A DNA stretch of 60,105 nucleotides from Bacteroidia bacterium (GTDB lineage: Bacteria > Bacteroidota > Bacteroidia > NS11-12g > UBA9320): positions 1-60,105 of the forward strand of contig JAFMCI010000008.1 of the NCBI GenBank assembly GCA_017857855.1, written 5' to 3'. The notes under the pieces were generated by a model. It worked only from the letters and a program-made list of their open reading frames with translations. It made no database searches and was not told the origin of the DNA. The first letter of the stretch is position 1. The number at the start of each line of letters is the position of its first letter. Position numbers and translations under genes: made by a program. Of this stretch, positions 11,651 to 18,048 are shown piece by piece.

Positions 11651-13951
11651 CTAGAATGGAAAACCAATACCAAAATTAATTGCTGTATTGTTACTTATCC
11701 ACTTGGCTGATGCAAAATCTTGGATGACCCATCTATTACCCTCTAGTTTTGAAGGATCGTGTAAGGCAATTCCCCAATCTGTTCTGAAAATGATGTAGGT
11801 AAAATCAAACCGCAAGCCAAAGCCTGTATTCATGGCAATCTCTTTATAAAATCTATTCCACTTTAATTCAGCATTGGGAAAGCTTTCATCTTTCCTAAAG
11901 TTCCAAATATTTCCGGCATCTATAAATAATGCACCATTTAAGAATTTGTCTACGATGTCAAATCTATACTCAATACTACCTTGTAAGGCAAATTCTCCTG
12001 TTTTTTCAATTGTTATATCGCTGCTAGAATCGCTGTAACTCCCTGGACCAATGCTTCTAGCTCTCCAGGCTCTTAAACTATTGCCTCCCCCTACGAAAAA
12101 ACGACGTTCAAAAGGCAAAAACAAAGTATTGCCATAAGGCAGCCCCGCTCCTACATAACCTCGGTAGGCTAAAGAATTATTCTCGTTTATAACATTGGTT
12201 AAGATAATATTAAAATCAGATCGAGCATACTGAGCGTATTTAACATTAAATATTTCCTTATTGGCACTGTAGTCACCTTTTATTTGATTAAAATACAATG
12301 AGGCTAGATTACCAGATAACTCTACAGGATTTGACCGAATTTGTAAGAAATAATTGGGATTCTTGTCCCTATTACTCCAGTACAAAGAGGTAAGAGGACC
12401 TGCAACTATATTATTAGTTAAAAGCTGTTCTGTGTAATAACGTGTACTAGGATCTAGCGAAAGTAAGAAATCTGCATCTACACTTGACTGATTTATACTA
12501 AGCCTAAAAGGTGTTATACCAAAGGACGTGCGTCCTTTGGTAAACGCATAAGTAAACGTTAAGGGTATTACTTTTCTAGTAAAATTCTTATTCTGATCAA
12601 AAATTATTGAAGTGTTAATTTTAGTACTTTTTTTAATTAAAACTTGGCTAAATTTTTTACGCTCAAAGTATATCAAAGAAGGAATAACCAACTCTGCATT
12701 TAGACTCTGTCTAAAACTGGTAAAAGAGCCCTGATTATCTTTTTTTATTTGTGTTTCTAGTGCCGTATATGAGGTGAGATTAAAAGATTCTGCTCCGCCA
12801 AAAACATTACGGTTTATAAGTGACAAATTATTAGCAATACCAAAACTATTATTATTGGTTTCTAACCCTAAATTTTGTTGCGTATAAATAGCTTGTGGCT
12901 CAATTACAAAATCATGTTTTTTGGTGGTTTTTAAAAGAATTACGACATCAAGCCTAGTTAAACTATCTTCTAACGAAGGATTAAACCTAATGGTCACAAA
13001 GCTGAACAATCCCATAGACAACAGGTTAGAATATGTTTTTTGAACCAAATCAGCATTGTACACGTCTGAAGGCCTAAAAATGATATTCTTTGCTAAAACA
13101 GTTGGCTTTATTTTATAATCGCCTTCTAAAAATTGTAATCTATCGTATATAAGCGTATCCGTAAATATCGAGTCTCCTATTAAAACCTTTACACTATTTA
13201 TAGTTTGCTGATAATGTGGATTTAAATTTTTGTTATTCCTGATATTAACCACCACATCAGCGCTTTGCTGTGACTGATTGGTATCAATTTGAAAATCAAC
13301 AAATGAATTATTGAAGTAAAAATAGCCGTTATTTCTAAGTAGTTCTGTAATACGACTTCTTTCATCTTCTATTTTATCAAAATCGATTCGTTGATCTTTT
13401 TTTAATATTTGTTGATTGAATGTTTGCTTAAGTAAATCTGATATTCCCTTGGAAGCTGAATTATAGGAAAGACTATTGATTACGGTATAGTTATTTAGCT
13501 TCACCTGATACGTTACGAATGCCCTTTTCTTGAAAATCTTACGTGGGGTTATGTGATAACTTACGGTATTATTCAAAAAACCTTTGCTAAAATAGTAGTC
13601 AGAGAGCCTGGTAGCCGAAAGATCCATTTTATTGGTATCAATAAGCACGGGAGCTTCTCCCACATTTTCAGCAAGTTTACGCAGCCAAGGTTGTTTCTTA
13701 CGTATGCCCAAACCTTTTTTTCCGTACTGATAAGCCCAAAGATGAAACTTCACAAACCCAAGTAACTTTCTATTGGGTTTTTGCTTAAGGCTGGAGCGTT
13801 CATCTGTTAAGTTAACTCCATGATCATCTATACGTTCTATCTTATTTTTAACCAAAAGATACTCTCCCTCAGGCACAATACGTGTAATATTACACGCAGT
13901 ATTACCGAGTACAGTAAAAAGTATGAGACAATATTTTAGTTTTGTATTCAA
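11651..13951 (-). CDS. tamL: TamL-type BamA/TamA-family outer-membrane lipoprotein
   Basis: A 766-residue protein with a lipoprotein signal (lipobox GNTAC, Cys20) followed by ITRIVPEGEYLL, the signature opening of Bacteroidota TamL. POTRA-like repeats fill about residues 40-370. A 16-strand barrel follows, with FVGGGNSLRAWRARSIGPGS in the strand 11-14 region, ending IRFDFT...INFGIGFPF-like strands. It is likely an outer-membrane assembly partner of a TamB-like protein. The only possible start is TTG at 13951, because a TGA lies four codons upstream and no ATG is near. It is divergent from the RNA methyltransferase gene with 14 bases between start codons. Confidence 0.85.
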   Translation of the reverse strand: MNTKLKYCLILFTVLGNTACNITRIVPEGEYLLVKNKIERIDDHGVNLTDERSSLKQKPNRKLLGFVKFHLWAYQYGKKGLGIRKKQPWLRKLAENVGEAPVLIDTNKMDLSATRLSDYYFSKGFLNNTVSYHITPRKIFKKRAFVTYQVKLNNYTVINSLSYNSASKGISDLLKQTFNQQILKKDQRIDFDKIEDERSRITELLRNNGYFYFNNSFVDFQIDTNQSQQSADVVVNIRNNKNLNPHYQQTINSVKVLIGDSIFTDTLIYDRLQFLEGDYKIKPTVLAKNIIFRPSDVYNADLVQKTYSNLLSMGLFSFVTIRFNPSLEDSLTRLDVVILLKTTKKHDFVIEPQAIYTQQNLGLETNNNSFGIANNLSLINRNVFGGAESFNLTSYTALETQIKKDNQGSFTSFRQSLNAELVIPSLIYFERKKFSQVLIKKSTKINTSIIFDQNKNFTRKVIPLTFTYAFTKGRTSFGITPFRLSINQSSVDADFLLSLDPSTRYYTEQLLTNNIVAGPLTSLYWSNRDKNPNYFLQIRSNPVELSGNLASLYFNQIKGDYSANKEIFNVKYAQYARSDFNIILTNVINENNSLAYRGYVGAGLPYGNTLFLPFERRFFVGGGNSLRAWRARSIGPGSYSDSSSDITIEKTGEFALQGSIEYRFDIVDKFLNGALFIDAGNIWNFRKDESFPNAELKWNRFYKEIAMNTGFGLRFDFTYIIFRTDWGIALHDPSKLEGNRWVIQDFASAKWISNNTAINFGIGFPF
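13937..13944 (+). promoter_or_regulatory. -7 promoter box of the TrmH-family gene, inside tamL
   Basis: TAGTTTTG is a perfect TAnnTTTG match 21 bases before the TTG start at 13966. It lies within the first codons of tamL on the other strand. No clear -33 TTG is visible. Confidence 0.55.
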
Positions 13952-13965
13952 ATTAAGAAGTCAAA

Positions 13966-14685
13966 TTGCCAAGCAAAGCTAAATTAAAACTGTACCAACA
14001 ACTAACCAGCAAAAAGTTTCGTCAAAAGTATGGTCTATTTGTCGTAGAAGGGTTAAAATCTGTTAATGAATTAACCCAAAGCAATTGGCCTGTGGAGACT
14101 ATACTGTGCACTCCTGCTTTTTTGGAGCGATACGGAGAGCAAATAGACTTCACATTTGACCTGATAAGCAGCGAAGAATTTGCTGCTACATCGCACTTAA
14201 CCAACCCCCAAGAAATACTTGCAATTGCTAAGTTTCATGACACCAATGCGACTACTTCTCAATGGCAAATAGCCTTAGACGGAATAAACGATCCTGGTAA
14301 TTTAGGTACCATTATCAGAATTGCAGATTGGTATGGCATAAATACTATTTACTGCAGTGAGAATACTGTGGAATTTTATAATAGCAAGGTTATTCAAAGT
14401 ACTATGGGTTCATTTTTAAGGGTAAAAGTAATAGAAGGAAATCTTAGTGAACTCTTAGAAGGAAAAGATGTGTTTGCTACATTACTTAACGGAGAGAGCA
14501 TTAGAAGCATAGACAAGCCAACTAAAGGCGTTATTCTCATCGGTAACGAAGCAAATGGAATCGAACCTACTACTTTAGATGCCATCAAACATACGGCCAT
14601 TACTATACCAGGTAGTGGTAATACTGAAAGCCTAAACGCTGCAATGGCAACCGCCATATGTTGTGAGCGATTAGTCGCTGAATGA
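13966..14685 (+). CDS. TrmH/SpoU-family RNA 2'-O-methyltransferase
   Basis: A 239-residue SPOUT-fold methyltransferase using S-adenosylmethionine. The N-terminal substrate-binding domain has FVVEGLKSV. The catalytic part has the three SpoU motifs: NDPGNLGTIIRIADW, LIGNEANGI and SLNAAMATAI. Such enzymes methylate ribose in rRNA or tRNA, but the exact target cannot be told from sequence. The start must be TTG at 13966, because TAA lies four codons upstream and no ATG follows closely. It shares a compact head-to-head promoter region with tamL. Confidence 0.88.
   Translation: MPSKAKLKLYQQLTSKKFRQKYGLFVVEGLKSVNELTQSNWPVETILCTPAFLERYGEQIDFTFDLISSEEFAATSHLTNPQEILAIAKFHDTNATTSQWQIALDGINDPGNLGTIIRIADWYGINTIYCSENTVEFYNSKVIQSTMGSFLRVKVIEGNLSELLEGKDVFATLLNGESIRSIDKPTKGVILIGNEANGIEPTTLDAIKHTAITIPGSGNTESLNAAMATAICCERLVAE
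13974..14001 (-). promoter_or_regulatory. Promoter of tamL, inside the TrmH-family gene
   Basis: On the minus strand a TTG (13999-14001), 17 bases and a perfect TAGCTTTG (13974-13981) match the Bacteroidota -33/-7 pattern. The -7 box ends 22 bases before the tamL start and lies inside the opposing coding region. Confidence 0.6.
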
Positions 14686-14923: not shown

Positions 14924-14934
14924 GATTTTAATAG

Positions 14935-15008
14935 TCGGGGTGGCAGGATTCGAACCTACGACCTCCTGCTCCCAAAGCAGGCGCGATACCGGGCTACGCT
15001 ACACCCCG
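14935..15008 (-). tRNA. tRNA-Pro (anticodon UGG)
   Basis: A 74-base cloverleaf. The 7-base acceptor stem is CGGGGTG with CACCCCG and discriminator A. The anticodon loop TTTGGGA gives UGG, and the T-arm is GTTCGAATC. No CCA is encoded. Last gene of a three-tRNA unit. Confidence 0.95.
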
Positions 15009-15087
15009 AGGTGTATAATGAGTTGTCTATAAATTGGGATTAGACAACCCAAGCACTTATTTAAAGTTTAAACCTTAAAAAGTGATG

Positions 15088-15161
15088 TGGTCCCACCAGG
15101 ACTCGAACCTGGAACCTACGGTTTAGAAAACCGTTGCTCTATCCGGTTGAGCTATGGAACC
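15088..15161 (-). tRNA. tRNA-Arg (anticodon UCU)
   Basis: A 74-base cloverleaf with acceptor stem GGTTCCA/TGGGACC (one T-G pair). The anticodon loop TTTCTAA gives UCU, and the T-loop is GTTCGAGTC. Discriminator A, no encoded CCA. Confidence 0.95.
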
Positions 15162-15208
15162 ATTAACAATTGGTATTCAAAGAACATATCTTATACCTTT
15201 TCTCTATG

Positions 15209-15296
15209 CGGTGGGTCCGGGATTCGAACCCGGGGTACCCTTGAGAGGTACGGCAGTTTAGCAAACTACTGGTTTAAGCCGCTCACCCAACCCACC
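15209..15296 (-). tRNA. tRNA-Ser (anticodon GCU)
   Basis: An 88-base class II tRNA with acceptor stem GGTGGGT/ACCCACC and discriminator G. The anticodon loop TTGCTAA gives GCU, with a long variable arm and T-loop GTTCGAATC. First gene of the operon. Confidence 0.95.
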
Positions 15297-15297
15297 C

Positions 15298-15318
15298 TTT
15301 TAAAGGAGTGCAAAAATA
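15298..15318 (-). promoter_or_regulatory. Promoter and start region of the tRNA operon
   Basis: Minus strand: a perfect -7 box TATTTTTG (15311-15318) followed by CACTCCTTTAAAA just before tRNA-Ser. The same TTTGCACTCCTTTAAAA block stands before tRNA-Cys at 52644. Confidence 0.7.
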
Positions 15319-15444
15319 ACCAGATTTTTATATTCAGAAATCTTTTTTTAATAATTTTTCAGAATTATTAAATCCTTTATAAACACGTCATTTTTTCATG
15401 TGTTTGCGGACTATTTGAAAATTTATATTTAACCTTGAGCCCTA

Positions 15445-18048
15445 ATGGCAGCTAAACAAAATAACGATTACATCTTTAGAAATATGAAGGTGTATAGCTC
15501 TACAGAATGGCTAGCAGACAATAAGAAAAAGTATCGCTCTGTTTTTGACAAAAATGAGAGTACATATGTTTATACCGAATTTTCATTTTTCAATTTAAAT
15601 TTTAAAAAGAAAGATTGGGATATCAAACTGAATTTAATCTGTCGAAATGCTAATAAAGTCGAAGTATGTAGATTAGTTTGTGACAGAACAATATCTAAGA
15701 ATAGTAACCTCATTTTTATTAGGGAAGGCTGGGGAACCTTTAATAAAGGAGCATATTGGGACACGGGAACATACACTTGGTCTGCAGAAATAGATGGCGA
15801 TGTTATTGCTGAAAAAAACTTCTACATACAAGATATAGGAATAATAACACCCAAACATAATCCTTATTTCGATATCAAATCTATTCACTTCTACGAAGGC
15901 CCTTTTGACAATGTAAAAGAACCCAATAGAAGCTACTTTGAGCAATTTAGTGAACAAGAATCTCGCTACATCTACGCTGAAATAACTGCGGTAAACAAAA
16001 CGAAGAATGTAAATTTCTGGAGTTGTGAAATGATTTTTAATTTTTTCACAGAAACGAACCTGCTCAAAGGAACCATGACTAAACTAACGTTTGTTTATGA
16101 ACAAGACAATGAGTTTACTATGACCGTTGGTTGGGGAGCAGATAAACCAGGATGTTGGCTTACCGGCAAATACTACCTAGATATTATGTTTATGGACACA
16201 TTGATTCAGCGAAAATCTTTCCAGATAGGACAAGATTTCGTAGAATATGTGTTAAAAGACGACGGTGGCATTAAAAAACCGACAGCTGCTAGCCCCTTTG
16301 TAAACACTAAAACTACTATCGAAAACACCCTTGGTGAACTAGATGACCTTATCGGTCTAAATAGTGTGAAAGACAGAATAAAAGAATATGCTAACTACTT
16401 AGAATTCATATCTCTACGGCAAGATAAAGGATTGGCAGAGGAAGATAAAATCAACCTGAATTGTGTTTTTAAAGGCAATCCAGGCACTGGTAAAACAACC
16501 ATAGCACGCAAATTAGGCAAGATATATAAACAACTTGGCTTGCTCAGTAAAGGTCACGTACACGAAGTGGATAGAGGAGATCTAGTGGCAGAATTTATAG
16601 GACAAACAGCACCCAAAACAAAAGCGGCTATAAAAAAAGCCGAAGGCGGAATCTTATTTATAGACGAAGCATACTCCTTAGCTAGAAAAGATGACGACAG
16701 CAAAGATTTTGGAAAAGAAGCCATAGAAATACTCCTCAAAGAATTATCTGATGGAAAAGATATAGCCATAATTGCAGCTGGCTATCCAGATGAAATGGAT
16801 ACTTTCTTAGAATCTAATCCCGGCCTAAAATCTAGGTTCAGAATGATTTACGACTTCCCAGACTATGCTCCACAAGAACTAATGGAAATTGCAGAAATAC
16901 ATTCTGCGAAAAAAGGAATCGTTTTTTCCAAAGAAGCCAAAGATCTCTTTTATAAAAAAACGGTGGAAGCATATCGAAACCGAGATCAGTTTTTCGGAAA
17001 TGCGCGTCTCATGGTTTCGCTTATTGAAGAATCTAAATTAAATCTAGGTATTCGTGTTATGGGCACAGATCATCCAGCTGATTTATCTATTGAAGATTTA
17101 TCAACCATTCAGCTTGAAGATATTGAAAAACTAAGCTTAAGTCCTAAATCCGTAATTCCAGATATTCCAATTGATGAAGAGTTACTTGCTCTTTCTTTGA
17201 AAAAACTAGATGGTCTTATTGGCATATCTTCGGTAAAAAAAGAAATAAATAGCCTTGTTAAATTAGTTAGATACTACAAAGAAACAGGCCAAGATGTGCA
17301 GAATAATTTCAGTTTACATTCTGTCTTTACCGGCAATCCAGGTACAGGAAAAACAACAGTAGCACGCATCTTAGCTCAAATTTACAAAGCACTCGGTATA
17401 CTAGAAAAAGGTAATCTAGTAGAATGTGATAGACAATCCTTAATAGGTGGCTATATTGGCCAGACAGCTATCAAAACAGGCGATATTATAGATAAAGCTA
17501 TGGGTGGAGTTCTTTTTATCGACGAAGCATATTCGCTTACAGAAGGTGGTAATTCAGATTACGGGAAAGAAGCTATTGAGATTATCCTCAAGCGTATGGA
17601 AGATTATAGAGGTCAATTTATAGTAATAGCCGCGGGATACACAGATAACATGACGCGTTTCATAGAATCTAATCCAGGTTTAAAATCTCGATTTGATAAG
17701 GTATTTGAGTTTGAAGACTTTGACGGTGAGCTATTATTAGATATAGCGCTTAATCAATTAAGTGACGCTGGTTTTACGCTATCTAAAAACGTTAAAAAAA
17801 GTCTAGCAAGCTTAATAAATCGTATGTATGAATCTAAAGATCAATACTTTGGAAATGGACGTAGTATCCGAAAAATTGTAGAAGCTGCTATTCGCAATCA
17901 ACATCTTAGAATGAGTGAATTGGCTCCCGAAAAACGTACCGCCAAATCTATAAAAAGTTTAATGATAGACGACATAACTAGTATTACCTTTGAAGACAAA
18001 TCAAAACCAGATGTGATTCCTACATTAGGTTTTAGAATAAGCAACTAA
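15445..18048 (+). CDS. Tandem AAA+ ATPase (CbxX/SpoVK-like) with duplicated N-terminal beta domain
   Basis: An 867-residue protein. Residues about 9-128 and 142-262 are two copies of a beta-rich domain, aligning at ES-Y-Y-E and GWG...W-TG-Y...F-I. Two CbxX/SpoVK-type ATPase modules follow at about 290-570 and 590-855. Each has Walker A GNPGTGKTT (near 344 and 630), Walker B LFIDEAYSL, a pore-loop-like IGQTA and an NPGLKSRF arginine-finger region. Both sites look active, suggesting a hexameric remodelling motor with an N-terminal client-binding part. The substrate is unknown. A TAACCTTG box lies 7 bases before the ATG. A glycosyltransferase gene follows after 18 bases. Confidence 0.8.
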   Translation: MAAKQNNDYIFRNMKVYSSTEWLADNKKKYRSVFDKNESTYVYTEFSFFNLNFKKKDWDIKLNLICRNANKVEVCRLVCDRTISKNSNLIFIREGWGTFNKGAYWDTGTYTWSAEIDGDVIAEKNFYIQDIGIITPKHNPYFDIKSIHFYEGPFDNVKEPNRSYFEQFSEQESRYIYAEITAVNKTKNVNFWSCEMIFNFFTETNLLKGTMTKLTFVYEQDNEFTMTVGWGADKPGCWLTGKYYLDIMFMDTLIQRKSFQIGQDFVEYVLKDDGGIKKPTAASPFVNTKTTIENTLGELDDLIGLNSVKDRIKEYANYLEFISLRQDKGLAEEDKINLNCVFKGNPGTGKTTIARKLGKIYKQLGLLSKGHVHEVDRGDLVAEFIGQTAPKTKAAIKKAEGGILFIDEAYSLARKDDDSKDFGKEAIEILLKELSDGKDIAIIAAGYPDEMDTFLESNPGLKSRFRMIYDFPDYAPQELMEIAEIHSAKKGIVFSKEAKDLFYKKTVEAYRNRDQFFGNARLMVSLIEESKLNLGIRVMGTDHPADLSIEDLSTIQLEDIEKLSLSPKSVIPDIPIDEELLALSLKKLDGLIGISSVKKEINSLVKLVRYYKETGQDVQNNFSLHSVFTGNPGTGKTTVARILAQIYKALGILEKGNLVECDRQSLIGGYIGQTAIKTGDIIDKAMGGVLFIDEAYSLTEGGNSDYGKEAIEIILKRMEDYRGQFIVIAAGYTDNMTRFIESNPGLKSRFDKVFEFEDFDGELLLDIALNQLSDAGFTLSKNVKKSLASLINRMYESKDQYFGNGRSIRKIVEAAIRNQHLRMSELAPEKRTAKSIKSLMIDDITSITFEDKSKPDVIPTLGFRISN

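Follow-up and report, generated by a model that had tools for sequence, protein, structure and literature searches.

The tamL gene and a SpoU/TrmH-family RNA methyltransferase gene of a Bacteroidia genome diverge from one another and form what is probably a compact head-to-head pair with mutually embedded sigma-A promoters, the crossing of which would stem from compaction. The putative −7 element of the methyltransferase gene lies in the first codons of tamL, and two candidate −7 elements of tamL, an old distal one and a genus-level proximal one, lie inside the methyltransferase gene. We analyzed a stretch of 60,105 nt (the window) together with a comparison set of about 150 related junctions. 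The name trmH is a working name for the SpoU-family gene at 13966-14685. The features of the junction are as follows:

11651-13951, minus strand: tamL, translocation and assembly module lipoprotein, TTG start (NF052279, 602 bits, cut-off 400)
13966-14685, plus strand: trmH, SpoU/TrmH-family RNA 2′-O-methyltransferase gene, TTG start (Pfam SpoU_methylase, 102 bits)
13937-13944, plus strand: candidate trmH −7 box (plus box), TAGTTTTG, inside tamL codons 3-5, perfect TAnnTTTG
13919-13945, plus strand: extended constrained region of the putative trmH promoter, tamL codons 3-11
13974-13981, minus strand: candidate proximal tamL −7 box, TAGCTTTG, inside trmH codons 3-6, the box of the initial annotation
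14023-14030, minus strand: candidate distal tamL −7 box, TACTTTTG, inside trmH codons 20-22 (Gln-Lys-Tyr), perfect
13949-13969, no strand: predicted overlap of the trmH mRNA 5′ end with the tamL mRNA from the proximal promoter, 21 nt (spacing of PMC9723704)
13949-14018, no strand: predicted overlap of the trmH mRNA with the tamL mRNA from the distal promoter, 70 nt (spacing of PMC9723704)

The family assignment is firm for TamL, which exceeds the cut-off of the NCBIfam lipoprotein profile lipo_TamL and has both POTRA and Omp85 barrel domains; the N-terminus and the lipobox are conserved among its relatives. The SpoU fold of the trmH product is equally firm and is accompanied by an MRM3-like substrate-binding domain. 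The methyltransferase reaches no equivalog cut-off among the NCBIfam profiles, and its nearest solved chain, 2i6d, carries no annotation beyond TrmH-family RNA methyltransferase. As the initial annotation had stated, both genes start with TTG, 14 bp separate the start codons, and upstream stops are present, namely an in-frame TGA four codons upstream of the tamL TTG at 13951 and an in-frame TAA four codons upstream of the trmH TTG at 13966. When 588 kb of the same genome were surveyed (40 contig stretches plus the window, with crude gene calls taken from the longest ORFs), none of 66 divergent pairs had a positive gap below 35 bp. The two genes were divergent in all 133 Bacteroidota loci that hold both, mostly with a gap of 5-45 bp, the gaps outside the genus of the window being approximate, as tamL starts were there extrapolated from the profile. 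Judged by this distribution, the divergent arrangement is old. Two papers on TamL, examined for gene order and for a trmH neighbour, give no description of the pair. In four Weeksellaceae-like loci (L050, L060, L061 and L062; the label is inferred from matching the named record L050) the two genes share 15 nt of coding sequence in a head-to-head overlap, and each start codon sits inside the opposing gene. In the window, trmH is followed by a minus-strand tRNA-Pro/Arg/Ser cluster (14934-15296), through two tRNAs of which a plus-strand 94-aa GTG ORF (15087-15371), probably not a gene, runs antisense, and by a reading frame at 15445-18048 for an 867-aa protein with two AAA+ ATPase repeats, which by eye resembles CbxX/CfxQ-type proteins.

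In Flavobacterium psychrophilum the TAnnTTTG box spans −12 to −5, with a median 5′ UTR of 24 nt (PMC9723704), and in Bacteroides thetaiotaomicron the median 5′ UTR is 32 nt (PMC7366714). The bare motif is not rare in the window, which is rich in A and T and where 91 copies were observed and 82 expected; the motif count was rejected as evidence, and position relative to start codons was therefore used instead. In the 588 kb, a perfect TAnnTTTG began 11-30 nt before the start codon in 41 cases for 207 first genes, compared with about 1.6 per 10-nt bin further upstream. The boxes at 13937-13944 and 13974-13981, which the initial annotation had correctly placed as perfect matches inside the opposing genes, begin 29-30 nt before their own start codons, that is, at the typical distance. 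At 79 nt from the tamL start, the distal box falls beyond the main peak of enrichment. With a weight matrix built from 46 promoters of the same genome, in which the fixed box letters were not scored, the plus box ranked at the 99th percentile of coding-region boxes with its own site left out of training, and the two minus boxes only at the 83rd and 86th percentiles of the coding background. No −33 element was recognisable at the distal box or at the plus box, and a TTG 17 nt upstream was present only at the proximal minus box; the TTTG/TTG element is barely enriched in this genome (28% vs 20%), and was rejected as a discriminator as too weak. With the box at −12 to −5, transcription is predicted to start at about 13949 (plus) for trmH and about 13969 (minus) for tamL, positions that replace the 13951 and 13967 proposed initially.

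Conservation of the boxes in close relatives had been set beforehand as a test, and both boxes passed it. All 14 same-genus genomes with the junction had a perfect TAnnTTTG as plus box, the only changes being at the two free letters; loci of family f2 were mostly without a perfect plus box. Synonymous variation was compared in six-codon windows among 14 genomes of the genus and two from sister genera (16 in all), the tamL portion covering the first ~460 codons; as the regions were found during the same analysis, the window ranks are descriptive. Codons 3-8 of tamL, which carry the plus box, had the lowest synonymous difference (0.07, mean 0.49), codons 6-11 had 0.12 against the same mean, and the next-lowest overlapping windows reached codon 11. 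The argument from constraint at the tamL 5′ end is weakened by the fact that start-proximal codons can be constrained for translation.

The proximal minus box kept at least 7 of its 8 bases in 15 of 15 same-genus genomes, being perfect in L001-L004 and L009-L015 and reading TAnnTTTA in L005-L008. Codons 4-9 of trmH, which hold most of it, had the second-lowest synonymous difference of the gene (0.20 vs 0.50, 16 genomes). At a free letter of the box, trmH codon 5 switches between Ala, Val and Gly, and it ended in T, the letter that the box calls for, in all 15 same-genus genomes, whereas the T-ending share of such codons is 39%. The proximal box is largely a genus-level feature.

The distal box, 49 bp further on and overlooked in the initial annotation, is the better conserved of the two and, from its distribution, the older tamL box. 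Its sequence, CAA-Ann-TAY, translates as Gln-[Lys/Arg/Asn/Met]-Tyr, and it was found in 60 of 97 distinct short-gap loci, belonging to families f1, f2, f5 and f7 and to some records without a family code. Codons 20-25 showed the lowest synonymous difference in trmH (0.10 vs 0.50, 16 genomes). In all 60 short-gap loci with Gln20 and Tyr22, a set conditioned on these two residues only and not on the codon, Gln20 was encoded by CAA, whereas 38 were expected from the same genes. A third of the other glutamines of these genes are CAG, and some genes strongly prefer CAG; even so, CAA is used at Gln20 in L114 (7 CAA to 33 CAG elsewhere) and L062 (5 to 23). When one draw per genus was compared with the CAA share before A-starting codons, the probability was 10^-5.2, a value for 27 genera or single records that does not correct for how the site was chosen. 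Gln20 was the most codon-biased of 53 scored columns, a descriptive rank obtained on loci carrying the distal box. Residue 21 varies between Lys, Arg, Asn and Met, its codon always starting with A and Arg being only AGA, in keeping with the A at the fourth letter of the box. Among the loci of one f1 genus (g4; L025, L028, L131, L134 and L135) residue 21 was Arg in four of five, always AGA, and the box was kept. Of 88 genomes of the order, 61 had the trmH-type peptide pattern with CAA and two had it with CAG, neither of the CAG cases being trmH. The initial choice of the tamL box therefore stood in part: 13974-13981 is kept in the genus, but the widely conserved box is the one at 14023-14030, with which the overlap would be 70 and not 21 nt.

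Box positions differ between clades. Many f6 genomes carry the minus box just before the trmH start, the f10 genus g34 has it at trmH position +8, and three f4 loci have it near +20; in all these groups Gln-x-Tyr is lost, which fits a release of constraint where the box lies elsewhere. The distal box was gained or lost only about 4 times on the tree, and an independent-pairs test of whether a box elsewhere frees the residue gave a consistent direction, not significant with only 3-4 independent changes. Neither minus box was present in 19 of 116 loci. In a control group of loci with no tamL found in their stretch, the distal box was present in 1 of 32 with the site aligned, namely L010, a same-genus contig that ends at the junction; this control group falls mostly outside the class of the window, and phylogeny confounds the comparison.

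Crossed promoters, and hence complementary 5′ RNA ends, had been proposed for the pair from the window, and as a prediction from box positions this proposal is well supported by the conservation of the boxes. The constraint on synonymous codons, and partly on amino acids, matches the boxes in position. The trmH and tamL promoters would face each other, and their mRNAs would be complementary over the first 21 or 70 nt, depending on the tamL box. Both start codons fall inside either predicted overlap, and the 70-nt duplex has a computed energy of about −114 kcal/mol. Other short-gap clades, with different box positions, also gave predicted overlaps, of 26-96 nt: 26-32 nt in most of f6, 30 nt in the f10 genus g34, 64 nt in f5 and 61-71 nt in most of f1. 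Among wide-gap loci, both boxes could be placed in three (L053, L098 and L113), and there the predicted promoters lie back to back without overlap; on these loci, promoter overlap is not obligatory. The simplest cause of the crossing would be that the very short gap leaves no other room for promoters, since the wide-gap loci have them back to back. An RNA polymerase at one promoter would also occupy the region where the other starts, and initiation should then be mutually exclusive from moment to moment. Mutual promoter occlusion would be a likely consequence of this geometry, and RNA pairing may be another.

Compaction has to be weighed against other explanations of the same boxes. If the Gln-Lys-Tyr segment and the first TamL residues were kept only for protein or translation reasons, the TAnnTTTG matches would be by-products. 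The boxes do fall in conserved protein segments, and gene starts are often codon-biased. However, a requirement for the protein does not account for CAA at every Gln20, even in the CAG-preferring L114 and L062, nor for the free letters being exactly the nn of the box; codon 5 of trmH changes its amino acid and keeps its final T, and Gln-x-Tyr disappears in f6, f10 and f4, where the box is elsewhere. We therefore regard the protein-only reading as improbable. A further possibility, to which we give some weight while finding it rather doubtful, is that only the proximal box drives tamL in the genus, the distal box being a decaying remnant or driving an antisense trmH transcript. The proximal box has the favoured distance of 30 nt from the start and the upstream TTG; against it, the distal box region is the least variable trmH window in the same genus, and the distal box is perfect in L005-L008 despite the degraded proximal box in these genomes.

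The overlap itself might have been selected, with one gene, when transcribed, repressing or timing the other through polymerase occlusion or because RNase III cuts the paired 5′ ends; outer-membrane assembly would thereby be linked to RNA modification, e.g., by growth phase. The predicted face-to-face promoters and the 70-nt duplex are in line with this, as are the overlaps predicted in several clades despite their different box positions, and in Flavobacterium johnsoniae the TamL protein was seen only in exponential phase (PMC12045153). Nevertheless, short gaps force an overlap by geometry, the wide-gap loci lack it, and the F. johnsoniae finding does not suggest transcriptional control, its authors suspecting regulation at the protein level (PMC12045153). 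A selected overlap is thus unlikely, and the coupling of outer-membrane biogenesis to RNA modification suggested in the initial annotation found no support, the promoters of L053, L098 and L113 being back to back. The most far-reaching version, in which a core-gene promoter dictates codons and amino acids (Gln-x-Tyr) in the divergent neighbour across several Bacteroidota families, and vice versa, and the complementary 5′ ends balance outer-membrane assembly against RNA modification during growth, must be considered quite unlikely as a whole. The compact pair with embedded promoters, crossed through lack of space, remains the explanation that we favour.

The analysis provides a concrete candidate location for the tamL promoter. 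Regulation of this promoter would matter, since F. johnsoniae cannot do without TamL and the protein was found there only in exponential growth (PMC12045153); edits to the first part of the adjacent methyltransferase gene could interfere with tamL. Among known systems, the pair resembles the bidirectional promoters with a shared symmetrical −10 element (PMC12825309) in having close predicted starts on opposite strands, where the binding of one polymerase excludes the other. It is not a promoter of that kind, however: there the starts flank one shared element or fall within it, whereas the tamL/trmH boxes are separate, and because they face inwards the transcripts are predicted to overlap. As in an excludon (PMC7154746), the mRNA of one gene would be antisense to its divergent neighbour; excludons combine a long overlapping transcript with repression of the neighbour, whereas the overlap predicted here is at most 70 nt, and the pair would resemble a small excludon if repression held. 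The layout would parallel that of the scbA/scbR pair of Streptomyces coelicolor, with divergent genes whose promoters overlap by 53 bp (PMC7384680): crossed promoters and complementary mRNA 5′ ends, here predicted from box positions, would be common to both, and interference and antisense pairing are both possible. The scbA/scbR pair is a circuit of a regulator and a synthase with a proposed switch function (PMC7384680), whereas tamL/trmH joins a membrane-assembly gene to an RNA methyltransferase gene, with no known regulator. Crossed promoters are thus already known. What differs from scbA/scbR is that each tamL/trmH box is translated as part of the opposing gene, so that both putative promoters would double as codons of a core gene, with a signature at the codon level in many genera; if true, the junction would show cleanly, in a natural bacterial case, how regulatory DNA shapes the sequence of proteins.
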